In this document: positions 6,001 through 36,927 of the stretch, piece by piece | Position numbering within the stretch: position 1 is the stretch's first letter | Layout: each line of letters begins with the position of its first letter | Assembly (NCBI RefSeq): GCF_002078235.1 | Contig: NZ_MSGP01000175.1 | Coordinates: 1 to 36,927, forward strand | Direction of reading: 5' to 3' | DNA from: Streptomyces viridosporus | GTDB lineage: Bacteria; Actinomycetota; Actinomycetes; Streptomycetales; Streptomycetaceae | Length of the DNA: 36,927 bases | Program-made: the position numbers and the translations under genes | The notes under the pieces: model-generated | What the model saw: only the letters and a program-made list of their open reading frames with translations | Database searches by the model: none | Told to the model about the DNA's origin: nothing

Positions 6001-6816
6001 GTCGGCCGAGGTGGCCCGTGGCAGGCGGGCGCGTATCGCGGCCAGGTCGAGGGGCGGGGCCGGCGCGGTGGCGCCGAACCGCAGGGTTCCGGTCGAGCAC
6101 AGCTCGCCGTCCGGGGTGTCGCCGACGCGCCGCAGCTCGTAGGCGACACCGTCGGCGGCCGGCGCGAACCGCAGCCGTACCCGGACCGGTTCGCCGGTGA
6201 ACAGGACGGGCCGGGCCCAGAGGACATTCTCGACGCCGGTGGCGCGCCCGTGCCCGGCGCGGGCGGCGGCGTCGACGGCGAACTCCAGGGCCGCGACGGC
6301 GGGCAGGATGCGCACCTGCCCCAGCGCGTGGTCACGCAGGAAGAACTCGTCGCCGGTGAGCAGCCGCTCGGCCGGATCGGCGGTGAGGGCGGCCGGCGGT
6401 TTGATCCAGTACCGGCGGGTCACCGGCGGCGGCTGCGGCAGTGACAGCCGGGCCGGGCGCGGACCCGCCTGCTCCGGCCAGAGGACCGGGGTACCCGCGA
6501 CCCAGAGCCGGGCGGCCTCGTGGAGATCCGAGGCCTGGACGGGCTCGCCGGTGGCCGGCACGGCGGTGCCGGTGACCACCCCGGTGCCGTCGCGCAGCCG
6601 CTCGGTTAGCTCGGCGACGCTGGTCACGACCACGGCGAGGCGTTCGTCCAGTTCCTCGCGGCCGGTGCGTAGGGTGCTCTCGATCCGGTCGAGGACCGCC
6701 TCCGGGTGCTCCTGCAGCCAGGTGACCAGCTCGGCCCGGTACCGGTCGAGCTGGTCGCGGCCGCCGGCCGACAGGACGATCAGCCGGGCGGCACGGTCCT
6801 CGGTGCTGTTACCCAT
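1..6816 (-). CDS. trans-AT PKS, PKS-C: DH-KR-ACP-KS-DH-KR (3' end outside window)
   Basis: The frame is open from ATG 6816 to the left edge, at least 2272 codons. The ATG overlaps the stop of the NRPS-PKS gene (ATGA), with GGAGAAG upstream. Residues 1-130 are the linker that normally follows a KS, so this protein completes the split module begun by the KS ending the previous protein. Order: DH about 135-425 (H163 in HALGQVRILP, D327 in HPSLLDAMLQ); KR about 430-790 (Y706 in ADYAYAN); ACP about 815-890 (Ser854 in YGIDSLL); KS about 935-1355 (C1100 in DTMCSSSLTAI, HGTGT, NIGH); DH about 1515-1790 (H1542, D1701 in IDGALH); KR about 1800-2240 (Y2163 in ANYAAGST). There is no AT, so extender units must be loaded in trans. 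Expected chemistry is two extensions, each reduced and dehydrated to an enoyl. A rare TTA codon is at Leu441. The matching ACP of the second module must lie further left. Confidence 0.93.
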   Translation of the reverse strand, partial: MGNSTEDRAARLIVLSAGGRDQLDRYRAELVTWLQEHPEAVLDRIESTLRTGREELDERLAVVVTSVAELTERLRDGTGVVTGTAVPATGEPVQASDLHEAARLWVAGTPVLWPEQAGPRPARLSLPQPPPVTRRYWIKPPAALTADPAERLLTGDEFFLRDHALGQVRILPAVAALEFAVDAAARAGHGRATGVENVLWARPVLFTGEPVRVRLRFAPAADGVAYELRRVGDTPDGELCSTGTLRFGATAPAPPLDLAAIRARLPRATSADDCYAVFAALGGGYGPSLRGLRSMRSVQGEALAEVAVPDAADLPFDDFTLHPSLLDAMLQAALWTAANPSAPRPRELPFSIDRVEILGPLPEHGYAHAVATATGHDIALADADGRIAVRLHGVVTRAVKDSADAVDTHLLAQRWQDAPARRGAPAAGRTVILGTGEDGPLPNSGPLVVVRLGDDDPLPGLVRLFRTWAAQPNRQPIRVLHVFRPSGAATDARLLALDGMARSIANEHPDFRAAVITTDGADLRAVADAEAAADHEFRVRYTAAGRQVVRWEPIVPAPVPAPLTPAGTVLVTGGAGALGRHLVSHLGPSARYVLTGRSADADLTALRAAGLDVHYLPCDLGVPGAAERLVERIHQMFGPLRGVLHLAGVTRDSFLLRKTDEDIAAVLGPKVDGTLALDRATAADPLDFFVCFSSMSGAGSPGQADYAYANRFLDAFAAWRRGSDRPGRSLSVLWSLWADGGIRMDADDTTQARIARRAGLRPLPTADALRAWDRALGHGGDHVLVAHGELDRIRGLLDAPAASAPVPAPEPATATGSPLAAAEDFLRGVLAEVLEYPPEDIDADTAFEQYGIDSLLIMDLTRRLEDHFGSLPKTLFFEYQELRGLAGWFAEQHGGRLAELTPAPTSAPASAPVVAAVPEAAPSGDRPTPPSADAPEPIAIIGVAARFAGSDTLDEFWANLRAGRDLITEIPADRWDWRDYDEATPADRAAEYSRWGSFLRGIDRFDPLFFGISPREAEIIDPQERLFLQTAWHAMEDAGLTRTDLRARRVGVYAGAMYGLYQLHEAADGRIGASSHASIANRVSYTLGVTGPSLGVDTMCSSSLTAIHLAVRDLRSGEAEMALAGGVNLHVHPYKYRFLGQGSFTSSDGRCRSFGADGDGYVPGEGVGAVLLKPLSAAVRDGDHIHGVILGSSVNHGGKTNGFTVPNPVAQSDLVERALAEAGSAAATLGYLEAHGTGTALGDPVEIRALARALGASGLPRGSLPIGSVKSNIGHLESASGMAGLCKVLLQMRHGELVPSLHADPVNPNIDFDSTPLRVQTEVAPWPRRDGLPRRAGISSFGAGGANAHLVVEEYVPGSAPAAAPGPWLFPLSARTPESLRALAERLADAVENGLADRLADVAYTLQHGREAWADRMVVLASTADELAGRLRAGTGTGVWTDSVRGRAASRAAAPAATDPAGLAAAWTSGATVAWPGTGRRLPLPGYPFEELRCWLTEQMWAPSPAGPATHPLLDEIEPADSVDGLTYRTAFAPAHPLIDGHRVGELRLLPAAAVLEMARAAAAHAGYSVPVRLRDVRWLRPLVVIEAAASARTRLRRDGAGLAFTLLGDTGDRLAEGVVEALADDVPEPVPVELLRAALPHRHDGADLYADLAGAGLVYGPALRAIEWIAAGDGEALARLRVPAEAARFADCALPPALIDGALHTFAVLRDRADGPPMVPFALAAAEVFGPLPEQVYAHVRAVGPDRYDLTLTDPAGNVHVRLRDLSLRPAPAPRTSDAGTSVTTGPSVTTGPAVTAGPAMTERPVDDLMYLPRWSPAPAEPFTAPFTAPLTAPGSDTWLIRPSSAAPLAAALATRLGGSVTEIEPEHFVAPAGRPGHVIVLSGPAQGRTDDLAALDLAQERGVLALFRVAKALQRSGAPVRLTVVTEDALSTGTEPVRNPYAASLHGLALSLAQEHPRWRVTVVDRSSADPISPDVLDVPAGGPYALRAGVVHRRSLVPAAPTTTREAIRHGGVYLILGGAGGLGLELTEWLVRGYRAKVVLVGRSGLDADRRDRLRRLDPAGELVSYRRADATDPAALGEVVAAVRAEHGALHGVVHATIVLRDQTVATMTEDTFRAVLDAKTRTSVALHRALGAADGLDFVLFFSSAVALSGSAGQANYAAGSTFEDAFAHHLDDVLAARSAVINWGYWGTVGIVADDRHRERLARTGIHSITPAEGMAAVHDMLGRTDRQVVVIKATAAVLAAAGVERPAAEQAGDELAPSAAALPP
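1313..1348. repeat. 12-bp tandem repeat x3 in a PKS-C linker
   Basis: Three copies of GGCGCGGTgAAC (first copy has c for g) encode repeated TAPF/TAPL in the flexible segment before the last KR. The unit is in frame. Confidence 0.85.
1423..1476. repeat. 18-bp tandem repeat x3 in a PKS-C linker
   Basis: Three near-identical 18-bp units (1423-1440, 1441-1458, 1459-1476) encode TTGPSV-type hexapeptides in the linker between the second DH and the last KR. Confidence 0.85.
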
Positions 6817-9800
6817 CAGTGCTTCTCCGCTTCCGCCACGACGACGTGTACGTTGCTGCCACCCATGCCGAAGGAGCTGACGCCGGCGCGTGCCGGCACG
6901 CCGTCCGGCGGCTCCCAGGGCTGCGTCTCGGCTTGGAGCCGGAACGGGCTGCCGGCCAGGTCGATCATCGGGTTGGGGGTGCCCAGGTCGGCCAGGCCGG
7001 GCATCAGGCGGTGCCGCATGCTCAGCAGCACCTTCACCACTCCGGCGACGCCGGCGGCGGCCTCCAGATGGCCGATGTTGGACTTGACCGAGCCGAGCCC
7101 GGTGCGCCCCTCCACGACCGGCCGCCCCCAGTCGCGGTAGAGCTGCCCGAACGCCTCCCGCAGCGCGTCCACCTCGATCGGGTCGCCGAGTGGTGTCCCG
7201 GTGCCGTGCGCCTCGATGTAGCCGATGGTGTCGGGCGGCACCGCCGCCGCCCGGTGCGCCGCGAGCAGGACGTCGCGCTGAGCCTGCGGGTTGGGCACGG
7301 TCAGCGAGTGGGTGTGGCCGCCGTGGTTCTCGGCCGAACCGATCAGGACGCCGTGCACCGGGTCCCCGTCGGCGACCGCGCGCTCCAGCAGTTTGAGCGC
7401 CAGCAGGACCACGCCCTCGCCCCGGCCGTAGCCGTCGGCGCGCTCGTCGAAGGTCTTGCACCGCCCGTCAGCACTGAGCATTCCGGCGCGGCGCAGGCCG
7501 GTGAAGCCGTGCGGGGACAGCAGCAGGTTCGCGCCGCCGGCCAGGGCGAGTTCGCAGTCGCCGAGGTGCAGAGCACGGGCCGCGCGGTGGATCGCCACCA
7601 GGGAGCTGGAGCAGGCGGTGTCGTAGACCGCGCTGGGGCCGTGCAGGTCATACACGTAGGAGATGCGGTTGGCCGCGATCGAGGCGACGTTGCCGATCAG
7701 GAAGTGATCGCCCATCTCCGGCGAGCCCGGGCCCAGCAGGCTCAGATAGTCGGCGCCGCTGAGACCGACGAACACCCCGGTACGACTGCCGGCCAGTGCC
7801 GCGGGCACGAGTCCGGCGTCGAGCAGGGCCTCGTCCGCGGCGTGCAGAAGGAGTCGGTGCTGCGGATCCATCTGGGCCGCCTCGCGCGGCGAGATCCGGA
7901 ACCGCCCCGCGTCGAAGGCGTCGACGTCGCGCACGAACGAGCCGCGAAAGCGTTCCGGGAACACCCGGGCGGAGAAGCCGCGCTCCAGCGGGTACGGCGC
8001 GGTGAGGTCGCGGCCCTCGGCGAGGTGGGTCCAGAACTCGTGCAGCGACCCGGAGGCCGGCAGCCGGCCGCCGACGCCGATGATCGCCACGGGCGGGTAG
8101 CCGAGGGCCTCAGGAGGTACCGCGGGCCCAGAGGCCGGGACGGTGGCCGCCGCCCGGGCCGACTCGAACTCGGCTTCGGTCTCGGTGAAGGCGTCCGGGC
8201 GGTCCGCGCCGAGGTGCGCCGCGAGCGAGCTGAGCGCGGGGTGCGCGTAGAAGAGCGTGGGGCTGACCGGTACGCCGAAGCGGGTGCGGACCGCCATCGC
8301 GAGCCGGGTGAAACCGACCGAGTCGAAGCCCGCCTCGCCGAGTGGCCGGTCCACCGGGATGTCCTGCGGCGCCACCCCGGCGACACCCGCGGTCAGCTCC
8401 CGCAGGGTGGCCAGCAACCGGCCGCTGTCGTTCGGCCGGGACTCCCGCGGTCTCTCGGCGTGGCCGAACTCGCGGATCAGTTCGTCCAGGGAGCCGGTGG
8501 CGAGCCGGACCGCGTCGATCTTGGCGTTCGGGGTCATCGGCAGGCCGGTCATCGGCACGGTCCGGGACGGGATCATGTACGCCGGAAGCCACTCCTCGAT
8601 CCGCCCGGCGATCGTCGCGGCTTCTGCGGGCTCGGCGACGACGAAGGCGACCAGGCGTGGATGCCCGGGCCGCTCTTCACGCAGGACCACCCGCGCCTCG
8701 CCGGTCACACCGGTACGCCGGATCGCCGCCTCGATCTCGCCGAGCTCGATCCGGTGCCCGCGCAGCTTGATCTGCCGGTCGGCGCGACCGAGCAGCAGCA
8801 GCTCGCCGGTCTCGGTCCACCGGGCCAGATCTCCGGTGCGGTAGCGCCGCTGCCCGTCCTGCTCGACGAAACGCTCGGCGTTCAGTTCGGGGCGGCCGCG
8901 GTAGCCGCGGGCGACACCGTCACCGCCGATCAGCAGTTCCCCGGTGGCGCCGAACGGGACCGGGCCACCGTCCGGCCCGGCGAGATGGAACGTCGTGTTC
9001 GCGATCGGCGTGCCGACCGTGATCGGCCGGTCGCGGCGTACCCGCAGCGCCGAGGACCAGATCGTGGTCTCGGTCGGGCCGTACATGTTCCACAGCTCGC
9101 CGGAGCGGTCGAGCAGGTCGGCCGCCAGCTCGGCGCTCAGCGCCTCCCCGCCGCAGAGCAGCCGGGGTACCCGCCCGCTCCAGCCGGCGGCGAGCAGCAT
9201 CTGCCAGGTGGCCGGTGTGGCCTGCACGATGGTCGCGCCGCTGCTGTCGAGCAGGCCGGCCAGCGCGAAGCCGTCCCGGGTGACCTCGGTCGGCGCGATG
9301 TGGACGGTCGCGCCCTGGGTGAGCGGCAGCAGCAGTTCGAGGCCGGCGATGTCGAACCCGGCCGTGGTGACGGCCAGCAGCACGTCGTCGTCGGCGCACC
9401 CGGGCCGGTCCGCCATCGAGGTGAGGAAGTTCACCAGGTTGCCGTGGGTGACCTCGACGCCCTTGGGCCGGCCGGTGGATCCGGAGGTGTAGAGCACGTA
9501 CGCGAGATCGTCGTCGTGGCAGGCGACCGGCGTGCCCGGGACGGCGTCGCCCGGGTCACCGAGCGGGATGCGGGCGCCAGGTGTCCCGGCCGGCAGGCGG
9601 TCGGCGTACGCCGGGTCGACGAGGACCGCGGCGAGACCGGCGTCGGTGCAGATGTGCGCGAGGCGGGCGGCCGGGAAGTCCGGGTCGAGCGGCGCGTAGG
9701 CCGCGCCGGCGGTGTGCGCCGCCAGCATCGCCACGATCATGGCGGCTCGCCGGCCGGACAGCACACCGACCAGGTCGCCGCGGCCCACGCCGGATTCGCC

Positions 9801-11410
9801 GAGGGTTCGCGCCAGTGCGTGCACCCGCCGGGCCAGTTCGCCGTAGCTGATGGCACCGTCGGCGTCCACCACCGCGACGCGCTCCGGGGCCGACGCCGCG
9901 CGGGCCAGCACCAGGCCGGCCGCGGTCACGTCGCGCGGCCGGGCGGCACGGGTGTCGTTGGCCCGGTCGACGAGGGCGCGTTCCGCCGCAGTGGTGAGAG
10001 GCAGATCGCCGATCAGCTGCCGCGGATCGGCGGCCACGGTTTCCAGCAGCAGCCGGTAGTGCTCGGCCAGGCGTTCGGCCGTGGCCGGGTCGAACAGCTC
10101 ACGGTCGTACTTGATGTGGACCAACGCCTCCGACCCGCGCACCACCACCTCGACGACCAGCGGGTTCTCACCCTCCTGGGTCAGCTCGAGGGCGTCGTGG
10201 AAGACGGTCTGCCCGGCGGCCATGTCCTGGTCGCCGCCGACGCCCTGTTGCAGGTAGAAGCCGATGTCGAAGGAGACCGCGGTGCCGCCGGCGCGGCGCA
10301 GGTCACCGACCACGGCGGCGAACGGGTAGGAGCTGTGCTCCTCGGCCTGCGCCATGTGGTCGTGCACGGCGGTCATCAGCTCGGCGAGGCTGCGCTGCGG
10401 GTCGCAGTCGACCCGTACCACCACCGGATTGATCAGGTACCCCACGGTGCGGTCGAACCGCTCGGAGATCCGGCCGTCGGTCGGCACCATGACGCTGATG
10501 TCGCGGTGACCGGAGTGCCGGTGCAGCAGTGCGGCGAAGGCACCCAGCAGCACGCTGAACGGGGTCAGCCCGGCCGCGCCGGCGACCTGGCGGACGGACG
10601 CCCAGGTCGCCTCCGGCAGCCGGAACTGCACCATCGCGCCGGTGTCGGCGGTGGGCGGCTCGACCCGGTGCCGATCGGTGATCGCGTCGAGGACCGGACC
10701 GCTGGAGGCACCGGCCAGCCGGTCGAGCCACCAGCGGCGGTGTGTCTCGGCCTCCGGCCCGTCGAGCAGTTCCCGCTGGCGACGGACGAACTCGTGGTAC
10801 GGGGTGGCCGGCTCGACCGGCGGCAGAACGCCTCGACCGGCCAGCGCGTCGTGGCAGGCCACGATGTCGCGCAGCAGCAGGTGGCTGGAGATCCCGTCGG
10901 TGATCATGTGGTGGAACACCAGGAGCAGCAGTGTCCGGCCGCCGGGCGCCGCGATCAGCCACATCCGGTGCAGGGGATCGTGCTCCAGGTCGAACGGGGT
11001 GTGCACCAGGCGCCGGACGCGCGCGGCGAACTCCCCGTCGGTGACGTGCCGGAGGTCGAGCCGGACCACCTCGGCGGGGCGTTCGGTGATCTCCTGCACC
11101 GGCGTGGTCCCGTCCAGTCGGACGGCGATCCGCAGCCCCGGCTGCCGCTCCACGACGGCGATCAGGGCCCGGGTGAGCACGTCCGGGTCGATCCCGTCGC
11201 CCAGCCACAGCCCCAGCGGCAGGTTGTAGGAGGTGGTGCCGGGCCGACTCGCGTGGATCGCCCAGAGCGCCGCTTGGCCGCGGCTGAGCGGGTACGGCCC
11301 CGGCTCCGGCACCGGCGCCGGATCGGTCAGGCCGCGCAGCAGCGACTCGGCGATCTCGTCCGGCAACTCACCGGAGGCGACCGCGGCGAGGACGTCGCGC
11401 AGTGCCGGGC

Positions 11411-11414
<4 letters not shown>
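6816..11414 (-). CDS. NRPS-PKS hybrid: C-A(Gly)-PCP-KS
   Basis: The start is taken as ATG 11414 because it overlaps the PKS-B stop (ATGA) and the next residues form a plausible docking helix; the frame is open further upstream only as antiphase to PKS-B. Length is 1532 aa. Order: N-terminal docking helix about 1-30; condensation domain about 40-470 with H168-H-M-I-T-D-G; adenylation domain about 490-985 with YTSGSTGRPKG and MYGPTETT; PCP about 995-1070 (Ser1032 in EAGFDSVGF); KS about 1100-1525 (C1268 in DTACSSSLVAIH, HGTGT, NIGH). Reading the ten specificity positions against GrsA by eye gives DILQLGMIWK, which I recognise as a glycine code. The protein therefore should add glycine to the polyketide from PKS-B. 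Its terminal KS accepts the glycyl chain, but the matching DH, KR and ACP are on PKS-C. The protein ends directly after the KS. Confidence 0.94.
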
Positions 11415-24466
<13,052 letters not shown>

Positions 24467-24490: not shown

Positions 24491-27400
24491 TCAGCGGTGG
24501 GAACGGTCGAGCGCGGGGGCCGCGACCGGCGTGACGGTGAGATCGAGGCGCGCCGACCGGACCGGTCTCGCGGCGGGGCGGACGGGCCTGGTACGGATCT
24601 CGGCACGGCGAGGCCAGTACCGGCGACGCCGGTACTCCGGTGGCGGGAGCGGAGCCCGGCCGGTCCCCTCGGGCGCGCCGGGGCCGAGTACGACGTGGGC
24701 GTTGGTGCCGCCGAATCCGAAAGCGCTGACCGCGACGCGGCTGCCGGCGGGCAGTTCGGTCGTGGTGCGCGCGGGGAAGAACGGTGACTCGGCGAACGCG
24801 AACCGAGGATTGGGCCGCTCGCAGTGCAGGGTCGGGACGATCAGCCCGTGCCGGAGCGTCTGCACGGCCTTGATGAATCCGGCGATCCCGGCCGCGCTGA
24901 GCAGGTGGCCCATCGAGCTCTTGACGCTGCCGATCCCGCAGTACTCCCGGTCACCGGTGTGCCGCCGGTAGACGGCGGTCAGCGCCTGCAACTCGATCGG
25001 GTCGCCGATCATCGTGCCGGTGCCGTGCGCCTCGACATATCCGATGGTGCGCGCGTCGATGCCGCCGCGGGCGAGCACATCGGTGATCAGCGCCCGCTGG
25101 GCGTGCCCGTTCGGGGTGGTGTGGCCCATCGTGCGGCCGTCGTTGTTGACACCGGACGCTTCGATGACCGCGAGGATGCGGTCGCCGTCGCGTTCGGCGT
25201 CGTCGAGACGCTTCAGCATCACCAGCCCGGCGCCCTCTCCCGGGACGAAGCCGTCGGCGGACTCGTCGAAAGTACGGCAGCGTCCGGTGGGTGACAGCGC
25301 CTTGCCGGCGCTGAGCATCAGATATGGCTCTTCGTCCAGCAGCAGGTCCACGCCGCCGGCCAGCGCCATCTCGGACTCGCCCAGCATCAGGCTCTGCGCC
25401 GCCAGGTGCACGCTGACCAGCGCCGACGAGCACGCGCTGTCGACCACGAGGTTCGGCCCGGCGAGGTCGAGGAAGTGCGACACGTGCGCCGCGATGTAGT
25501 TCTGGTTGATCCCGACGATGGACTCGCGGGTCAGCGGCCGCAGGTATTCGCGGTGGTTGCCGGTCCGGCCGCCAACGAAGACGCCGACCCGGCGGCCGCG
25601 CAACTCCTCGTCGGTGTACCCGGCGTCGTGGACGCATTCGACGGCGACCTCCAGCGTCTTGCGCACCAGGGGGTCGAGCTGCCGTGCCGTCTCGTCGTCG
25701 AAGCCGAAGTAGCCCGGGTCGAACAGGGCGGCGTCGTCGAGGAAGCCGCCCCACCGGCTCTGGCTGAACCCGGGGCCGCCGTCCGGCCGGTAGAGCGCCG
25801 TGGTGTCCCACCGGTCCGCCGGCACGTCGCCGACCATGTCCCGCCCGGCGAGCAGTGCCTGCCACAGCTGTCCCGGGTCGGCGGCGCCGGGTAGCCGGCA
25901 GCCCATCCCGATGACCGCGATCCGCATCGGCACGCCGTCCGCGGCGGGCGTTCGCGCCGGCGCCGCGGACGCCACCGGGCCGGTGGCCGGGGCGCGCACC
26001 CCTCCGTCGGTGAGCGCGGCGGCGAGCCGGGCCAGTGTCGGATGCTCCTGGAGCAGGCTGGGATCCACGACGTCTCCGAGCGCCGCCTCGAGATCGCGGA
26101 CCAGCTCTGCCATCAGCAACGAGTCCACGCCGAGGTCGACGAGGTTGGTGTCGGGCCGCAGCAGGGACCGATCGGTGCGGGTGGTCCGGGCCACCACGTC
26201 GGCCAGCCAGTCGATGTTGTCCGGCTCCGGCCCGTCCTCCGGAGCGGTGACCGGCGCCGGGGCCGCCTCGGGGGCACGCCGGGGCGCCCGGAACAGGTCG
26301 TCGGCCGGCACCGTCGTCCGGCGAGTCAGGCAGGGAAGCAGAACCGGCTCGCCCGGCACCCGCAGCGCCAGGTCGAGCAGTCGCAGCGCGTCGGTCTCCG
26401 CCAGGTCGGGGATGCCCAGCTCGGTCCCGGCGCTGGTACGCCGCTCGCCCATCCCGACGTCCCGCCAGAGCGGCCACCGCAGCGACCGGACCACGCACCC
26501 GGGCTCTTCCGCGTGCGCCTCGGCGAAGTCGTCGAGGACGTTGTTGGCCGCGGCGTAGTCCAGATAGCCCCCGGCCAGCCGCGGCGACCCGGCCGCGATC
26601 GAGGAGAACAACACCATGAGCCGCGGCAAACGGCTGCCGAACGCCGCCCACAGTGTCTCGACGGCGAGCTTGGGCCGCAGCACGTCATCGATCTCGCCGG
26701 CCGTCTTGGCCAGGAACGACCGGGGCTGGTGCATGACCCCCGCGCAGTGGAAGACCGCCGCGATCCCGTCGGTACGGCTTCGATGTCGGTTGACCAGTCG
26801 GCGCAGCGTGACCACGTCGTTCAGCGCATGTGTGTGGACGGAAAGCTTCACGTCCCGGTCGGCGAGGGCCAGCAGGGCGGTGAGGCGCGCGCGCAGCAGC
26901 GGGTCGGTCGACGGCTCGGCGACCAGGGACGCCCAACGGTTGCGGGCAGGCAGCTCGGAGCGGCCGATCAGGACGAGGTGCCGCGCGCCCCGGTCGACCA
27001 GGTGCTCGGCGAGGCGCAGGCCGATTCCGCCGACGCCCCCGGTGATCAGAACGGCGCCCCGGTCCAGACCGGTCAGCGAGTCGAAGTCGCCGGGCTGGGC
27101 GAACCCGACCACGCGGCGCCGCCGCCGGGAGCCGGCGTACCGGATCTCGGTCTCCTGGTCGTCGGCCGTGCTCTCGGCCGCGACCGCGGCGGCCAGGTCC
27201 GCAAAGTCACCGTCGACCCGGACGGTGCGGGAGACCACCGTGGGCAGTTCTCCGGAGACGGCGCGGTAGAAGCCGGCCAGCGCCGAGCGGCGGGCGCCGC
27301 TGACGTGCAGGCAGCGCAGGCCGGTACGCGGATGCCGGCCGAGCACTTGGCGCAGCACCTCGATCCGCTCGGTGACCAGCGCGCCCGGTTCGCTCCAGTC

Positions 27401-30400
27401 GACCAGATCGGCGACGCCGACCAGGCCCGGGACGGCGGGCAGCGGATCGCCGGGGCGATGCGCGAGGGCGTCGTCGCCGAACAGCGTCGGCGCCAGGTTC
27501 GGGTCCGTCGTGAGGACCAGGAAGCGCCCGCGCTGAGCCGACGCGGGTGGCGGCGCGTCCTGCCAGGCCGCGGTGAGGAACTGAGGGGCGGCGGTGGGCG
27601 CCGCCCAGTGCTGGTCCCGGCGGAACGGGTAGGTCGGCAGCGACACGATGGGGGCGGCCAGCACCGGGCCCTCGATCCCGGCGTCGCCGGTGAGCGGCTC
27701 GGCGTCGACGGCGGCGGCCAGAGCGTCCGCGAGTTCGCCGAGGTCGGCCGCCGTGACGGTGACGCGGCAGGCCAGCGTGGCGCGGCCGGTGCTCATCGTC
27801 CGAGCGATCGAGGCAAGCGGGGGCGCTTGCGGTGACCGCACCACGTTCAACAGCGCGACAAGCGCGTCCCGCAGGGCCTGCGGGGCGCGGGCCGACACCG
27901 GCACCGCCACCCGGCCGGTCGGCGGCGCCTCGGCGGCGGGCGGTGCCTCCTCCAGGACCACGTGCGCGTTCGTGCCGCCCATGCCGAACGAGCTGACCCC
28001 GGCCCGGCGGGGGCCGCCGCCGGGCGGCGGCTCCCATGCGGCATGTTCCAGCTGCAGCCGTAGCGGCGACCCGGACAGGTTGATCATGCGGTTCGTCCGG
28101 CGCACATTGCGGGTGGCCGGCAGGGTCCGGTGGCGCATCGCGAGAATGACTTTGATCATTCCGGCGATACCGGCGGCGGCCTCCAGATGACCGATGTTGG
28201 TCTTGATGGATCCGATGCCGCAGTGCGGCGCGTCCGGCATCGGGTGCTGACTTTGGGCGTACAGCCGGCGGAACGCCGCCACCATGGCCGACACCTCGAT
28301 CGGGTCGCCCAGCCGGGTACCGGTGCCGTGCGCCTCGATGTAGCCGACGGTGGTGGGGTCGACGCCCGCCGTGGTGTACGCGCTGACCAGCAGGTCGGCC
28401 TGGGCTTCCGGGTTGGGCGCGGTGAACGACTGCGCCTGCCCGCCGTGGTTGACCGCCACCTCGCGGATGACCGCGTGCACCTGGTCGCCATCGGCGAGCG
28501 CCCGGTCGAGGGGTTTGAGCAGCAACGCGCATGCCCCCTCGCCGCGGACGTAGCCGTCGGCGCCGTCGTCGAACGTGTGGCAGCGTCCGCGTGGGCTCAG
28601 CACTCCGGCCCGCTGGTACGCCGCGTGCCGTCCCGGGTCGCACAGCACGTTCACGCCGCCCGCGAAGGCCTGGTCGCATTCTCCGGCCCGCAGCGCCGCG
28701 ATGGCCTGGGCGACCGCGACCAGCGACGACGAGCAGAGTGTGTCCACGGTGACGCTCGGGCCGCGCAGGCCCAGGGCGTACGAGACCCGGTTGGCCACCA
28801 GCGACGGGGAGACCGCGACGCTCAAGTGCGGTTCGTCGCGACCGGCGTGCTCGGCCAGAACGGTGGCGTAGTCGGAGTGGCACACCCCGGTGTAGACGCC
28901 GGTCAGGCTGCCCGCCAGCGTGGTGGGATCCTGTCCGGCGTCCTCGGCCGTCGCCCAGGCCACCTCAAGCATGAGTCGCTGCTGGGGATCCATCAGCGCA
29001 GCCTCGCGAGGGCTGACGGCGAAGAATTCGTGGTCGAAGCGGCGAATGTCGTCGAGCAGCGCCGCTCGTCCCACCAGATCCGGGTATGCGGCGGTGTCCC
29101 AGCGGTCGATCGGGATGTCGCGGATCGCGTCCTCGTCGCGGCCGAGCAGGTCCCACAGCTCACCCACGCTGTCCGCCCCGGGGAAACGTCCGGCCATGCC
29201 GATCACCGCGATCGGCGCCGAGGCGTCCGGCTTCGGTGCGGCCGTGGCGGCGACCGGTCGGGGCTCGCGGTCTTCGCCGCGGATCACCCGCGCCATGGCG
29301 GCGGCGGTGAAGGCCTGGAACATGGCGCTGGGATCGATCTGCAGGCCGTGTTCGTCGTGGGCCAGCGCCACGACCTCGGCCAGCGCGACGCTGTCCAGGC
29401 CGTACCGGCGCAGGTCGTCGTCGGCGGTCAGGGAGCCGGCGAGCCGACCCAGCGCCCGTTCCAGCAGAGGCAGCAGCACCGCGTCCAGGTCGTCGGTCAC
29501 GGGCGCCGGGTCCGGCGGTGCCGTCGCGGCGCGGGTGGTGACGGCGTCACCCCAGAGTCCGCCGAACACGCTGGGCCCGCGCAGTGCCTTGACCGTCTCG
29601 ATCCGGGCCAGCGGCCTGTTGTCCCCCTCCCGCAGCAACGTCGAGGTCAGCACCGCCCGGTGACCGTCCTCCAGGCGCAGGTCGTCGAGCCGGTATCGCA
29701 CGGTGTCCTCGGCGCCACAGTTCGCCAGATACACGACGTCGCGGCTGACGGTGGCGGCCGCGGTGGCCCACTCGCCGCCCGGCGCCAGCGAGTGCAGGTA
29801 CCGGCGCTCGCCGTGGTCGTTGATATGCGGGTAAGAGGCGAAGTAGAGCAGGCCGAGGGCGTTGACGTCGACGACCGGGTTGAGCTCGTAACGCTCGGTG
29901 TGCAGCCCGGGACCGTCCATGTGGCGCCCGCTCTGAGCCTGGAAGTCGTGCAGGAAGGCCAGCTGGTCGGCGTCCGGCTCACGGGCCGACAGGCAGCCGG
30001 GGAGCTGTGGCACGCCGGGAACCAGCCAGTTACGGTCCGAGCGGCGGACGAAAACGGTGAGCAGCCGGACGTCGACGTGTGCCGTACCGGTGGCGAACCG
30101 GATGTCGGACAGGAACCGCCGGTCGTCCAGTCTGATCAGTTCACCGCTCATCTCGCCTTCGTCGAGCTCGGCGAAAGAGGCGAGCGAGGCGCTCGCGGTG
30201 TGCCGGACCCGGACGAAGGCCGGGAGTAACCGGGTGCCGTCGGCGTCGGCGAGTTTGTTGACCGAGGTGCCGAAGTACTCACCGATCAACGACCAGTGCA
30301 GGTCGCCGGACTCACGTAACAGCCAGTTTTCGGAGAGGCCACCGGTGGCGAGCGTCGGCAGGCCCAGAACGACGTGCCGGGCGGTCACGAGGCAGAACCG

Positions 30401-30457
30401 GAGGGGTGGTGACCGGGGAGCCGCGCGCAGCCCTGCTGCCGCCTGTCTGGCCCCCAT
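24491..30457 (-). CDS. Loading trans-AT PKS, PKS-A: LnmK-like acyltransferase/decarboxylase-ACP-KS-KR-ACP-KS
   Basis: This is the first protein of the assembly line, 1988 aa. Residues about 27-310 resemble the LnmK family (bifunctional acyltransferase/decarboxylase of leinamycin biosynthesis): GGLSENWLLRESGDLHW, LGLLYFASYPHIND and SRDVVYLANC are the visible signatures. LnmK converts methylmalonyl-CoA to propionyl-ACP, so this domain probably makes the starter. Then come ACP about 325-395 (Ser356 in YGLDSVAL), KS about 412-835 (C575 in DTLCSSS), KR about 975-1370 (Y1301 in LDYAAAN), ACP about 1410-1480 (Ser1446) and KS about 1508-1925 (C1676 in DSACSSA). It ends with an Arg-rich tail after the last KS, whose DH partner starts PKS-B. 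The start is uncertain: ATG 30457 is the first ATG or GTG seen in the frame but lacks a clear Shine-Dalgarno; GTG 30388 (residue 24), nearer the conserved region, also lacks one. TTA codons at Leu47 and Leu77. Confidence 0.93.
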   Translation of the reverse strand: MGARQAAAGLRAAPRSPPLRFCLVTARHVVLGLPTLATGGLSENWLLRESGDLHWSLIGEYFGTSVNKLADADGTRLLPAFVRVRHTASASLASFAELDEGEMSGELIRLDDRRFLSDIRFATGTAHVDVRLLTVFVRRSDRNWLVPGVPQLPGCLSAREPDADQLAFLHDFQAQSGRHMDGPGLHTERYELNPVVDVNALGLLYFASYPHINDHGERRYLHSLAPGGEWATAAATVSRDVVYLANCGAEDTVRYRLDDLRLEDGHRAVLTSTLLREGDNRPLARIETVKALRGPSVFGGLWGDAVTTRAATAPPDPAPVTDDLDAVLLPLLERALGRLAGSLTADDDLRRYGLDSVALAEVVALAHDEHGLQIDPSAMFQAFTAAAMARVIRGEDREPRPVAATAAPKPDASAPIAVIGMAGRFPGADSVGELWDLLGRDEDAIRDIPIDRWDTAAYPDLVGRAALLDDIRRFDHEFFAVSPREAALMDPQQRLMLEVAWATAEDAGQDPTTLAGSLTGVYTGVCHSDYATVLAEHAGRDEPHLSVAVSPSLVANRVSYALGLRGPSVTVDTLCSSSLVAVAQAIAALRAGECDQAFAGGVNVLCDPGRHAAYQRAGVLSPRGRCHTFDDGADGYVRGEGACALLLKPLDRALADGDQVHAVIREVAVNHGGQAQSFTAPNPEAQADLLVSAYTTAGVDPTTVGYIEAHGTGTRLGDPIEVSAMVAAFRRLYAQSQHPMPDAPHCGIGSIKTNIGHLEAAAGIAGMIKVILAMRHRTLPATRNVRRTNRMINLSGSPLRLQLEHAAWEPPPGGGPRRAGVSSFGMGGTNAHVVLEEAPPAAEAPPTGRVAVPVSARAPQALRDALVALLNVVRSPQAPPLASIARTMSTGRATLACRVTVTAADLGELADALAAAVDAEPLTGDAGIEGPVLAAPIVSLPTYPFRRDQHWAAPTAAPQFLTAAWQDAPPPASAQRGRFLVLTTDPNLAPTLFGDDALAHRPGDPLPAVPGLVGVADLVDWSEPGALVTERIEVLRQVLGRHPRTGLRCLHVSGARRSALAGFYRAVSGELPTVVSRTVRVDGDFADLAAAVAAESTADDQETEIRYAGSRRRRRVVGFAQPGDFDSLTGLDRGAVLITGGVGGIGLRLAEHLVDRGARHLVLIGRSELPARNRWASLVAEPSTDPLLRARLTALLALADRDVKLSVHTHALNDVVTLRRLVNRHRSRTDGIAAVFHCAGVMHQPRSFLAKTAGEIDDVLRPKLAVETLWAAFGSRLPRLMVLFSSIAAGSPRLAGGYLDYAAANNVLDDFAEAHAEEPGCVVRSLRWPLWRDVGMGERRTSAGTELGIPDLAETDALRLLDLALRVPGEPVLLPCLTRRTTVPADDLFRAPRRAPEAAPAPVTAPEDGPEPDNIDWLADVVARTTRTDRSLLRPDTNLVDLGVDSLLMAELVRDLEAALGDVVDPSLLQEHPTLARLAAALTDGGVRAPATGPVASAAPARTPAADGVPMRIAVIGMGCRLPGAADPGQLWQALLAGRDMVGDVPADRWDTTALYRPDGGPGFSQSRWGGFLDDAALFDPGYFGFDDETARQLDPLVRKTLEVAVECVHDAGYTDEELRGRRVGVFVGGRTGNHREYLRPLTRESIVGINQNYIAAHVSHFLDLAGPNLVVDSACSSALVSVHLAAQSLMLGESEMALAGGVDLLLDEEPYLMLSAGKALSPTGRCRTFDESADGFVPGEGAGLVMLKRLDDAERDGDRILAVIEASGVNNDGRTMGHTTPNGHAQRALITDVLARGGIDARTIGYVEAHGTGTMIGDPIELQALTAVYRRHTGDREYCGIGSVKSSMGHLLSAAGIAGFIKAVQTLRHGLIVPTLHCERPNPRFAFAESPFFPARTTTELPAGSRVAVSAFGFGGTNAHVVLGPGAPEGTGRAPLPPPEYRRRRYWPRRAEIRTRPVRPAARPVRSARLDLTVTPVAAPALDRSHR

Positions 30458-30705: not shown

Positions 30706-30759
30706 GTGGACAAGATTTGCGACATTCGTAACACCGAGCAAGCGGGTGGTCACTCGTGA
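30706..30759 (+). CDS. Possible 17-residue leader ORF coupled to the PPTase
   Basis: A GTG at 30706 follows a strong ribosome-binding site (GGAGG at 30697-30701 with a 4-5 base gap) and opens a 17-codon frame, MDKICDIRNTEQAGGHS. Its TGA (30757-30759) overlaps the GTG start of the PPTase as GTGA. The PPTase start itself has only a weak purine stretch (GGGTGG), so translational coupling through this ORF would explain its expression. No homologue is recognised. The alternative is that this ribosome-binding site marks a leader sequence without a functional peptide. The ATG at 30701 sits on the ribosome-binding site and is not a credible start. Confidence 0.4.
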   Translation: MDKICDIRNTEQAGGHS

Positions 30760-31490
30760 TCACCGGAGCCGCCGACACCGGATTGCTGAACGCCCTCCTT
30801 CCATCCGGTGTCGCCGTTTCAGAGCTGTTCACCGACCCACTGCACATCGACCTGCACCCGCAGGAGGCGGCCGTCGTGGCCCGCGCAGTCGACAAGCGCC
30901 GCCGCGAGTTCGCCGCCGTCCGTCTCTGCGCACGCACCGCGCTGAGACGGATTGGAGTGACCCCCGGACCGATCCTGCCGGGCCCCAAGGGTGCACCCCA
31001 GTGGCCGGACGGAGTGATCGGCAGCATGACGCACTGTGACGGCTACCGAGCGGCGGCGGTAGCTCATCGCGATACCTTCGCCTCGATCGGGATCGACGCC
31101 GAGCCGCACGCCACTCTGCCCGACGGCGTGGAAAAGCTGACCGCGCTGCCCGAGGAGCGAATGACCCTGACCCGGCTGGCCATCACCCACCCTCGCGTCC
31201 ACTGGGACCGGCTGCTGTTCAGCGCGAAAGAGAGCGTTTACAAAGCGTGGTTTCCATTGACCGGTCGCTGGCTGGACTTCACGGAATGCATCATCACGCC
31301 CGATCCGGAACGTCACACCTTCACGGCCGACCTGACCGTGCCCGGACCGGTCGTCGCCGGAGACCGGATCAGCCGGTTCACCGGACGCTGGCACGCCGGG
31401 GGTGACACTCGACATGTCATCACCGCCGTCACCGTGCCGTGGCCCAGGGCGGTTGCACGTTCCGGGGGCGTGCGGCTGGTCGGGGTGTGA
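30756..31490 (+). CDS. 4'-phosphopantetheinyl transferase (Sfp/PptT type)
   Basis: This 244-aa enzyme should transfer phosphopantetheine from coenzyme A to the carrier-domain serines of the neighbouring PKS and NRPS proteins. Family motifs are clear: GSMTHCDGYRAAAV at residues 89-102, the metal-binding IGIDAEPH at 111-118 (D114, E116), and FSAKESVYKAWFP at 155-167 (K158, E159, K163). The N-terminal half has the RRREF stretch near residue 50 typical of the PptT/EntD branch. The start is GTG 30756, which overlaps the stop of the small upstream ORF. It is transcribed divergently from the PKS operon. The CRISPR array begins 44 bp after its stop. Activation of the adjacent megasynthases is an inference from position; it could also serve other clusters in the genome. 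Confidence 0.93.
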   Translation: MITGAADTGLLNALLPSGVAVSELFTDPLHIDLHPQEAAVVARAVDKRRREFAAVRLCARTALRRIGVTPGPILPGPKGAPQWPDGVIGSMTHCDGYRAAAVAHRDTFASIGIDAEPHATLPDGVEKLTALPEERMTLTRLAITHPRVHWDRLLFSAKESVYKAWFPLTGRWLDFTECIITPDPERHTFTADLTVPGPVVAGDRISRFTGRWHAGGDTRHVITAVTVPWPRAVARSGGVRLVGV

Positions 31491-31534: not shown

Positions 31535-31927
31535 CTGCCCCCCGCATCCGCGGGGATGGTCCCCACTTCGCGGAGCTGTTCCGCTCTGCTCTGGACTGCT
31601 CCCCGCATCCGCGGGGATGGTCCCCCCGACGCGCGCCCCGACGTGGTGCTGTGCGGCTGCTCCCGGCACCCGCGGGGATGGTCCCGCACCTACGACAAGC
31701 GCGAGAGGAAGTGGCGTCTGCTCCCCGCACCCGCGGGGATGGTCCCGTCGCCCAGATGATTGCCCTGCGTGCCGTCGGCTGCTCCCCGCCCGCGGGGATG
31801 GTCCCCCGTCCGCCGTGCTCACCACCGTCACCGGCGACTGCTCCCCGCACCCGCGGGGATGGTCCCAACTGCGGCATCTCCTTCGGCAAGGAGTCGGACT
31901 GCTCCCCGCATTCACGGGGGTGTTCTG
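31535..31927 (+). CRISPR. CRISPR array, type I-E-like, 7 repeats and 6 spacers
   Basis: Repeats lie at 31535-31563, 31596-31624, 31657-31685, 31718-31746, 31779-31805, 31838-31866 and 31899-31927. All six spacers between them are exactly 32 nt, giving a 61-bp period. The 29-nt repeat starts CTGCTCCCCG and ends GGGGATGGTCCC; its CCCCG...CGGGG palindrome and length match type I-E repeats of actinomycetes. Aligned to the E. coli I-E repeat, transcription runs on the plus strand with a 5' handle ATGGTCCC. The last repeat is strongly degenerate, as expected at the trailer end. Repeat 1 has two substitutions, repeat 3 has one (CCCGG for CCCCG) and repeat 5 lacks two bases. No cas gene is seen in the window. 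Confidence 0.97.
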
Positions 31928-31945
31928 CAGTTGGCGGGCGCGCGT

Positions 31946-33922: not shown

Positions 33923-34399
33923 ATGAGAGCGTTGCCCGCCGTCACTGACCGGGATGAGTTCGATGCCCTGGTCGTCAGGGTCGACTACCACGACGACCAG
34001 GTGTGGCAGAACGTGGTGGCGGCGCTGAGGGAGCCCTGGGGAGACAGGCCGTACGAGGCGCATGTCCACTTCATCGACGGTCCGGCCTGGGCGGGGGCGA
34101 CCGTTGACGAAGTGCTGACTGCGGTCTGCGGCGACGACAACCTGGCCGTTGTCTTTCTCGCCGACCGTACAACCATGCAGGCCGAAAGCCACGCGCTGCT
34201 GGCGGTCACCACGCTGACGCGGGAGGAGTGCGTGGACGATGAGGACTATGAACAGCTGACCGAGTTCGGCCGCGATTTCCGCACCATTCCCGCAGGGGTC
34301 CACGACGTCTACGCGAACCTGAGCATCGGCAACCTGGGCTTCGAGGAGTACGCGGCATGGGCTCACGATGATCCCGAGGGGATCTACCGGTCCTGCTGA
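33923..34399 (+). CDS. Hypothetical protein, DUF6924-like
   Basis: This 158-aa acidic soluble protein starts at ATG 33923 with a strong ribosome-binding site GGAGAAGG four bases upstream. It has no signal peptide or membrane segment. The pattern LVVRVDYHDDQVWQNVVAAL near the N-terminus, VHFIDGPAWAGATVDEVL in the middle and LAVVFLADRTTM followed by HALLAVTTL recalls small actinobacterial proteins grouped as DUF6924, from memory of the family. No catalytic motif is visible and the function is unknown. The next confident gene starts about 310 bp downstream on the same strand. Confidence 0.75.
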   Translation: MRALPAVTDRDEFDALVVRVDYHDDQVWQNVVAALREPWGDRPYEAHVHFIDGPAWAGATVDEVLTAVCGDDNLAVVFLADRTTMQAESHALLAVTTLTREECVDDEDYEQLTEFGRDFRTIPAGVHDVYANLSIGNLGFEEYAAWAHDDPEGIYRSC

Positions 34400-35470: not shown

Positions 35471-36927
35471 CTACGGCCGACCGCGTCGGCGCAGTCTCGA
35501 CCACCAGCCGCGTTCCGCTCGTGCGGCTGCCGCCTCCGCATTGGCGAGGTTCTCTTGACTTCTGAGGGTGTGGGGGTGGTCGGGGCCGAGGATGCGTTCG
35601 CGGTCAGCCAGCGTGCGTCGGTGGAGGTCGATGGCTTCCTGATATTGACCGAGGCCGACCAAAGCGGCGGCCAGGTTGTTACGGCTGGCGAGGGTGTGGG
35701 GGTGGTCGGGGCCGAGGGTGCGTTCGCGGTCGGTGAGGACGCGGCGAAACAGGTCGGCGGCTTGCTGATACTGACCGAGCCTGACCAAAGCGGCGGCCAG
35801 GTCGTTGCGGCTGCCGAGGGTGTCGGGGTGGTCGGGGCCGAGGGTGCGTTCGCGGTCCGCCAGGGTGCGGCGGTGCAGGTCGGCGGCTTGCTGGTACTGG
35901 CCGAGCCTGAACAACGTGGTGGCGAGGTTGGTGCGGCTGGTGAGGGTGTCGGGGTGGTCGGGGCCCAGGGTGCGTTCGCGGCCGGTGAGGGCGCGCTGAT
36001 GGAGTTCGGCGGCTTCTTGATACTGGCCGAGGGCGATCAATGTGGTGGCGAGGTTGGTGCGGCTGGTGAGGGTGTCGGGGTGGTCGGGACCGAGGGTGCG
36101 TTCGCGGTCGGTGAGGACGCGGCGGTGCAGGTCGGAAGCCTCCTGATGCTGCCCGAGAGCAGTCAAGACGTGGGCGAGGTTGTTGCGGCTGCCAAGACTG
36201 TCGGAGTGGCCGGGCCCAAGGAGGCGTTCTCGGTCGGTGAGGACGCGGCGATGCAAGTCCGCGGCTTCCTGATGCCGGCCCAGACCGAACAGGGTATTGG
36301 CGAGGTTGTTACCGCTGGCGAGGGTGGCGGGGTGGTCGGGGCCAAGAGTGCGCTCACGCTCGGCGTGGAAACGCCGGTGCAGGTCCGCAGCCTCCTCGTA
36401 CCGGCCTAAGCCGACCAAGGCGATGGCGAAATTGGAGTAGCGAGCAGGGACGTCGGAATGGTCGACACGGACGTGGTTGTACAGGTCGACGGCTTCCTGA
36501 TGCTGACCCAGCCCGATCAGGGCGAAGGCCAGGCTGCTCCGGCTGGCGAGCGTGTCGGGGTGGTCGGGGCCGAGAGCACGTTCTCGGTCGGTGAGGACGC
36601 GGCGAAACAGGTCGGCGGCTTCCTGGTATCGGGCCAGTCCGGCCAGGGCGACAGCCAGGTTATTGCGGCTGGGGAGAGCATCGGGGTGCTCGGCCCCGAG
36701 ACGGCGCGTCACGGCGTTCAGAACATGCTGGCGTAGTAGATGCTCCTCGGCCGGGGCGTCGGCTTCACGCAGCACCCCGGCAAGGGAATCGAGCGTGCCA
36801 CGGGCTGCGGTGAAGGTGGGGTCGGTGGCGCGGTCCAGCAAGGGTGGCAGGTGGGGTGCGAGGAGGCGGGCGGTGGGCCAGCCAGCCCGGCCGGCGTGGA
36901 CGGTGTCCTGGACGGCCTGGGCCAGTT
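35471..36927 (-). CDS. TPR-repeat protein, C-terminal part (5' end outside window)
   Basis: The frame is open across the right edge; the first full codon starts at 36925, and TTG 36841 is not a credible start. The visible 485 residues are mostly TPR_12-type repeats of about 42 residues, with motifs such as LGPDHPDTLASRNNLA and LGQYQEAADLHRR. About nine repeats are present, one of them shortened (around 36440-36560). The protein ends in a basic tail, WWSRLRRRGRP. In actinomycetes such arrays commonly form the C-terminal protein-binding part of large NB-ARC or similar STAND signalling ATPases; the domain that would show this lies outside the window. It is convergent with the hypothetical genes to its left. 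Confidence 0.9.
   Translation of the reverse strand, partial: LAQAVQDTVHAGRAGWPTARLLAPHLPPLLDRATDPTFTAARGTLDSLAGVLREADAPAEEHLLRQHVLNAVTRRLGAEHPDALPSRNNLAVALAGLARYQEAADLFRRVLTDRERALGPDHPDTLASRSSLAFALIGLGQHQEAVDLYNHVRVDHSDVPARYSNFAIALVGLGRYEEAADLHRRFHAERERTLGPDHPATLASGNNLANTLFGLGRHQEAADLHRRVLTDRERLLGPGHSDSLGSRNNLAHVLTALGQHQEASDLHRRVLTDRERTLGPDHPDTLTSRTNLATTLIALGQYQEAAELHQRALTGRERTLGPDHPDTLTSRTNLATTLFRLGQYQQAADLHRRTLADRERTLGPDHPDTLGSRNDLAAALVRLGQYQQAADLFRRVLTDRERTLGPDHPHTLASRNNLAAALVGLGQYQEAIDLHRRTLADRERILGPDHPHTLRSQENLANAEAAAARAERGWWSRLRRRGRP
35575..36590. repeat. 126-bp tandem repeats within the TPR gene
   Basis: The marker GGTGGTCGGGG recurs at 35575, 35701 and 35827 and continues near 35953, 36079 and beyond at 126-bp steps, equal to 42 codons. 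Neighbouring units are highly similar at DNA level, which suggests recent unit duplication. The repeat also creates a long artificial plus-strand reading frame. Confidence 0.85.

Follow-up and report, generated by a model that had tools for sequence, protein, structure and literature searches.

The locus and the gene PKS1

The window analysed here is one whole contig (C85) of 36,927 bases from a Streptomyces viridosporus genome, which comprises 8.1 Mb in 986 contigs and has S. anulatus as its nearest named relative (97% identity). On its minus strand, family scans of the open reading frames (ORFs) recovered an assembly line of polyketide synthase (PKS) and nonribosomal peptide synthetase (NRPS) modules without acyltransferase (AT) domains. 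Our subject is the LnmK-like domain that opens the first protein of this line, PKS1, and the starter unit that it may form. PKS1 is 66% identical over 2036 columns to its homologue in S. globosus, the best plasmid record (NZ_CP030864), and is organized as follows (ACP, acyl carrier protein; KS, ketosynthase; KR, ketoreductase).

24491 to 30457, minus strand: PKS1 (KirAI-like), 1988 residues, with LnmK-like domain, ACP, KS, KR, ACP and KS (family scans and homology)
29600 to 30376, minus strand: LnmK-like double hot-dog loading domain, residues 28-286
30224 to 30226, minus strand: codon of Leu78, at the position of Tyr62 of LnmK (family alignments)
29861 to 29863, minus strand: codon of Asn199, in the DVN loop
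29717 to 29719, minus strand: codon of Cys247
29312 to 29476, minus strand: loading ACP, residues 328-382, with Ser356 in GLDSV (PF00550 and motif)
27938 to 29215, minus strand: KS1, residues 415 to about 840, with Cys575 and the HGTGT and NIGHL motifs intact (Pfam and motifs; end rounded)
26459 to 27058, minus strand: KR of module 1, residues 1134-1333 (Pfam)
26012 to 26212, minus strand: ACP of module 1, residues 1416-1482 (Pfam)
24683 to 25930, minus strand: KS2, residues about 1510-1925, with Cys1676 and both His motifs intact (family scans and motifs; limits rounded)

The gene may start later than the ATG at 30457, because a GTG at 30388 lies opposite the annotated start in S. globosus (residue 24).

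Family and fold of the first domain

A sequence-only reading of this DNA had proposed that the line opens with an LnmK-family domain joined to an ACP. Both parts of this claim held up. The domain scored 190.6 bits against TIGR04098 (LnmK_bifunc), for which the curated cut-off is 100 bits, and it was the sole match to this profile in the genome at E values up to 0.001. Against TIGR04099 (Pnap_2097) it scored 116.4 bits, under the cut-off of 125, and it is thus not assigned to that other hot-dog family. A Pfam scan assigned it to no family and returned one chance match (E 0.057). An AlphaFold model, built on the 26-sequence alignment A2 (the window's domain plus 25 relatives), had a mean pLDDT of 85.7 and a pTM of 0.85. 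Its seven best fold matches were all LnmK entries, both by Foldseek (best E 2.7e-18) and by VIA-align (Z 26.5-27.1, the highest for 6x7l over 263 residues at an rmsd of 2.6), and acyl-ACP thioesterases followed in VIA-align at Z 22.9 and below. The domain therefore belongs to the LnmK_bifunc family and has the double hot-dog fold of LnmK.

The likeness to LnmK extends to a DxN loop followed by GLLYFASY and to the Asn of a YLxN strand, although only 18% of residues are identical over the structural alignment. The setting is different. An acyltransferase/decarboxylase of the LnmK type is a separate enzyme for beta-branching, encoded beside genes for a donor ACP and a hydroxymethylglutaryl-CoA synthase, whereas the domain in the window is fused to an ACP and a PKS at the start of the chain. 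No such synthase was found among the window proteins or the scanned ORFs of contig C21, described below, to which the search for it was confined.

The residues D197, N199 and N246 are invariant in all 52 aligned rows, so that the Asn on the decarboxylase loop of LnmK-type enzymes is present here as Asn199. In MadB, a hot-dog malonyl-ACP decarboxylase, Asn45 has been named a key residue, and the leinamycin enzyme is said to use an Asn on a similar loop likewise (PMC8666670); Asn199 is probably the Asn that is meant there. We propose that the window's domain works like the malonyl-ACP decarboxylases MadA and MadB, in which a hot-dog converts malonyl-ACP to acetyl-ACP with a loop Asn (PMC8666670). 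However, MadA and MadB consist of a single hot-dog, and we do not claim membership of their family for our domain, which has no Pfam match to it.

In its second hot-dog half the domain has 4HBT thioesterases as distant relatives. When seven of the 4HBT-type proteins were tried, a profile made from the 52 rows recovered all of them, and their DTD aligned with the D-x-N of the family, which thus seems to have an Asn where such thioesterases have an Asp that plays a role in those enzymes. The weak proteobacterial matches to the family were short proteins of this type (3/3 scanned by Pfam, with EDTD in 10/10 read), which we take to be YbgC-like.

Loss of Tyr62 in one clade

The sequence-only reading had also pointed to Leu-Leu-Pro (residues 77-79) where Tyr62 of LnmK was expected. 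This alignment proved right. The Tyr of the TYLAF motif is number 62 by counting along the 6x7l chain, and the LnmK entry 4hzp has Phe there (TFLAF) where 4hzo has Tyr (TYLAF); we take this Tyr, as did the sequence-only reading, to be the acyl-transfer residue of LnmK. In an hhalign comparison of A2 with an alignment of 13 LnmK-type homologues (A3), which had a probability of 99.2, Tyr62 stood opposite Leu78 without gaps within ten residues. Among nearer relatives no deep alignment is required, as the stretch GERLYASFVR of the Bacteroidota corresponds to GTRLLPAFVR of the window. The Tyr62 mentioned in a leinamycin-family paper is a residue of an ACP and not of LnmK.

At position 78, the 48 distinct rows have Leu in all 14 Streptomyces PKS-fused domains and Tyr in all 34 others. 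Seven further rows (L025 and L074-L079) also have Tyr, and the five Bacteroidota PKS-fused domains retain it. The 48 rows were those left for the tree after four repeats (L021, L022, L027 and L029) had been removed; L001 (the window itself) and L025, L026 and L030 (fragments or weak) were left out of the counts, although L025 was later read, and L071, L072 and L073, as repeats of L049, L045 and L052, went uncounted. In the tree, built without the Tyr/Leu column, the Leu rows formed one clade (support 100/99), for which one change suffices. The tree has long branches, and LnmK proper lies far off. The nearest groups outside Streptomyces are the Pnap_2097 (TIGR04099), Azospirillum and Bacteroidota relatives, which are 25-36% identical to the window domain in A2 (Azospirillum 34%) and differ from it in having Tyr at this position in 15/15 rows. 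The earlier suggestion that the chemistry may differ is sharpened by these results, which confine the loss of the Tyr to a single clade and show the loop Asn to be invariant.

A second residue follows the same division. Cys247, which adjoins the invariant Asn246, occurs in all 16 Streptomyces PKS-fused, Tyr-less rows (a count that includes two repeats of the same genome) and in none of the 36 others. It is one among some fifteen clade-specific positions.

Distribution of the fused form

The genomes surveyed were samples drawn from larger groups. TIGR04098 matches occurred in 24 of 392 genomes of the Streptomyces group, 23 of them over the cut-off, and four of the latter, the window's genome included, carried the PKS-fused form of about 2000 codons. 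The phylum survey gave matches in 8/396 genomes, where only the window's own was over the cut-off. In the family of the Aquimarina genome there were two matches in 299 genomes, both PKS-sized. The Pseudomonadota, the phylum of the Methylobrevis genome, had matches in 94/398 genomes (7 over the cut-off), but the largest open frame had 755 codons and none was PKS-sized.

In addition, the patterns GGLSENWL and RE[AS]GDLHW were used to select 25 loci. These two motifs are conserved among the 25 loci because they were the patterns of selection, whereas position 78 lies outside both. The LnmK-type rows end shortly after the domain, and four of them (L009, L016, L018 and L019) have long open frames upstream.

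Five Bacteroidota loci (L045-L049) encode PKS proteins that start with an LnmK-like domain keeping Tyr62, followed by a GIES-type ACP (in the four read) and a KS (in the two scanned by Pfam), and they represent a second lineage of LnmK-loaded PKS. That the fusions in Streptomyces and in Bacteroidota arose only once was neither shown nor rejected (approximately unbiased test, p 0.148). Tyr-less LnmK-like starters, 49-52% identical to that of the window, were also seen in Streptomyces sp. NBRC 110611, S. xiaopingdaonensis and S. sulphureus (L042, L043 and L044).

An elfamycin-type cluster on two contigs

In S. globosus the homologous PKS1 (56% identity over the LnmK-ACP part) is adjoined by facT, predicted to serve in elfamycin efflux (97.5% to the reference gene), a crotonyl-CoA carboxylase/reductase gene and an aspartate decarboxylase gene, with a FabD-type AT, P450s and a 4'-phosphopantetheinyl transferase (PPTase) nearby. 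Apart from the PKS and PPTase genes, these S. globosus genes have their homologues in our genome on contig C21, at about 36000-53400, with identities of 52-79%. Among them are a KirCI-like gene (72-74%), panD (78%), a KirCII-like AT (64%), facT (67%) and the crotonyl-CoA gene (77-79%). One S. globosus methyltransferase had no match in the genome stretches searched. The C21 part is probably the other portion of the cluster in the window, the link being made by homology and not by continuous sequence. Thus, by homology to S. globosus, an AT-less PKS/NRPS in KirAI-KirAIII order is present, together with homologues of KirCI, KirCII, KirD, KirN and KirB on C21 (at 64-79% identity to those of S. globosus), and on this ground we regard the whole as a kirromycin/elfamycin-type cluster on two contigs. 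It resembles the kirromycin, factumycin and aurodox PKS in gene set and module order, as judged through the S. globosus cluster and not from the Kir proteins themselves.

Of the eleven Streptomyces loci among the 25 selected by pattern, seven have facT at 79-93% identity beside the PKS, and L036 is cut short. The locus of S. anulatus NRRL B-2873 contains PKS1 and the beginning of PKS2. The more distant L042-L044 did not contain the full elfamycin gene set in the stretches covered, so their product is possibly different; among these three loci there were one crotonyl-CoA reductase at 72% and one facT-like match at 32%, and L043 is short.

The assembly line continues downstream of PKS1 as follows (DH, dehydratase; MT, methyltransferase; C-A-T, condensation, adenylation and thiolation domains).

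11411 to 24466, minus strand: PKS2 (KirAII-like), DH-ACP-KR-KS-KR-MT-ACP-KS-KR-ACP-KS-ACP (Pfam counts and motif order), 65% identical to S. globosus PKS2
6816 to 11414, minus strand: NRPS-PKS (KirAIII-like), C-A-T-KS (family scan; start taken from the homologue)

By family scans and motif order, PKS1 and PKS2 meet as KS-KR-ACP-KS // DH-ACP-KR, and the later modules are KS-KR-MT-ACP, KS-KR-ACP and KS-ACP, followed by C-A-T. At the junction, the domains are ordered as in a type B dehydrating bimodule, said to yield a 2E,4Z diene; the same source lists kirromycin among the lines with dehydrating bimodules without giving its type (PMC8456789). An acetyl starter would give the chain CH3-CH=CH-CH=CH-CH(O)-C(CH3)2-, followed by a final unit, to which KirCII could give an ethyl branch, and by an amino acid. 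We take this chain to be the left half of kirromycin, in which an acetyl starter and five modules would presumably account for the 12-carbon acid; begun with propionyl, the chain would be one carbon longer. In the aurodox paper, acetyl-CoA extension is described for AurAI and AurAII (PMC9361827), and in kirromycin KirCI supplies malonyl to the AT-less modules (PMC5818483).

How the chain may start

We suggest, with moderate confidence, that the LnmK-like domain is a malonyl-ACP decarboxylase that forms the acetyl starter and is primed in trans by a KirCI-like AT. In this scheme, the loading ACP next to the domain would receive malonyl from the KirCI-like AT; the domain would then decarboxylate malonyl-ACP to acetyl-ACP, which KS1 would take. 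Because Tyr62 is lost and the Asn loop is kept, the domain may work as a decarboxylase alone. Elsewhere, the same role in starter decarboxylation is filled by KSQ domains. The GNAT fold differs from the hot-dog fold. At the start of the hangtaimycin trans-AT PKS, malonyl is likewise loaded and decarboxylated, but by a domain of this different type, GNAT (PMC8456789).

The main rival, distinctly less probable in our view, is a two-step acyltransferase/decarboxylase that converts malonyl-CoA to acetyl-ACP, with the transfer made by another residue such as Cys247 or directly, without a covalent enzyme intermediate. The fold, which is that of LnmK, and the strict occurrence of Cys247 beside Asn246 in the Tyr-less rows are in accord with it; however, with some fifteen positions specific to the clade, the coincidence is weak. 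A more specific form, in which Cys247 in the second hot-dog took over as nucleophile when Tyr62 was lost, would make this an acyl-cysteine hot-dog domain in need of no separate acyltransferase, and we regard it as unlikely. The sequence-only reading had favoured a propionyl starter made from methylmalonyl-CoA, the conversion described for LnmK and LrgK, which yields propionyl-ACP (PMC9396626). For the window domain this is unsupported and probably wrong, because the elfamycin-type cluster and the module order fit a chain started with acetyl, the product that we expect here in place of propionyl. Moreover, Tyr62 is lost, and the tree has a long branch between the domain and LnmK proper, so that the substrate of LnmK need not carry over.

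With an active-site residue missing, the domain might be catalytically dead, a structural or docking part, and acetyl might come from elsewhere, for example by decarboxylation by KS1. This seems improbable, since D197, N199 and N246 are invariant and KS1, unlike KSQ, retains its Cys. The ratio of nonsynonymous to synonymous substitution rates (dN/dS, by a simple count method) points the same way, being 0.08-0.48, and thus below 0.5, for the domain in 7/7 pairs; it was higher than that of KS1 in six and of KS2 in all seven pairs, and lower than that of KR in five. If the domain acted as a proofreading thioesterase and cleared the loading ACP, this would agree with the 4HBT relationship of the second half and with the acyl-ACP thioesterases as next-best folds. 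We consider it very unlikely, because the DxD of thioesterases is DxN here in 52/52 rows and LnmK is the better fold match (Z 27.1 against 22.9).

Several points weigh against a decarboxylase primed in trans. Another residue could carry the acyl group, and Cys247 leaves room for another route of acyl transfer. Tyr62 is presumed to be the acyl-transfer residue of LnmK, and the choice of acetyl leans on an assumed product structure, besides the cluster match. The action of the KirCI-like AT on the loading ACP is putative, and an LnmK-like domain in KirAI itself is predicted from S. globosus and other relatives. As the Bacteroidota fused domains keep their Tyr, fusion alone does not explain its loss. 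The dN/dS values are rough, because synonymous differences per site (pS) are high, at 0.44-0.58, in the six more distant pairs, and the loading ACP of 61 residues exceeded 1 in two of the seven (values of 1.20 and 1.22, against L044 and L042). Finally, precursor loading in kirromycin has been called well investigated (PMC5818483); thus the gap may be smaller than it appears and parts of the answer are possibly already in print.

The literature search, which left the LnmK, 2008 kirromycin and factumycin cluster papers outside its scope, turned up no PKS described as beginning with an LnmK domain; we do not claim that none has been published. In the aurodox paper, no LnmK-like domain is named in section 7 or in the legend of Fig. 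4 (PMC9361827). Our scheme proposes how elfamycin chains start, a step that the passages on kirromycin and aurodox available to us assign to no domain. The PKS-fused LnmK-like domains with Tyr in Bacteroidota and without it in Streptomyces offer a natural comparison, which could reveal whether acyl transfer depends on Tyr62 while decarboxylation does not. PKS engineering could also benefit from such a small unit for loading acetyl.

Other features of the window

Two further genes belong here, one at the contig end and one divergent from PKS1.

1 to 7461, minus strand: the PKS that follows, its frame open at the window end (limits are those of the ORF; true start probably further in)
30756 to 31490, plus strand: PPTase (KirP-like), 61% identical to its S. 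globosus counterpart (family scans)

Adjoining the PPTase gene, at 31535-31936, is a short CRISPR-like array of seven direct repeats with a common part of about 29 bases like CTGCTCCCCGCACCCGCGGGGATGGTCCC and a spacing of 59-61 bases; a family scan of the seven neighbouring ORFs found no cas families. A small DUF6924 protein (a domain of unknown function) is encoded at 33923-34399 on the plus strand, and a tetratricopeptide-repeat protein at 35471-36841 on the minus strand, in a frame open to the contig end.

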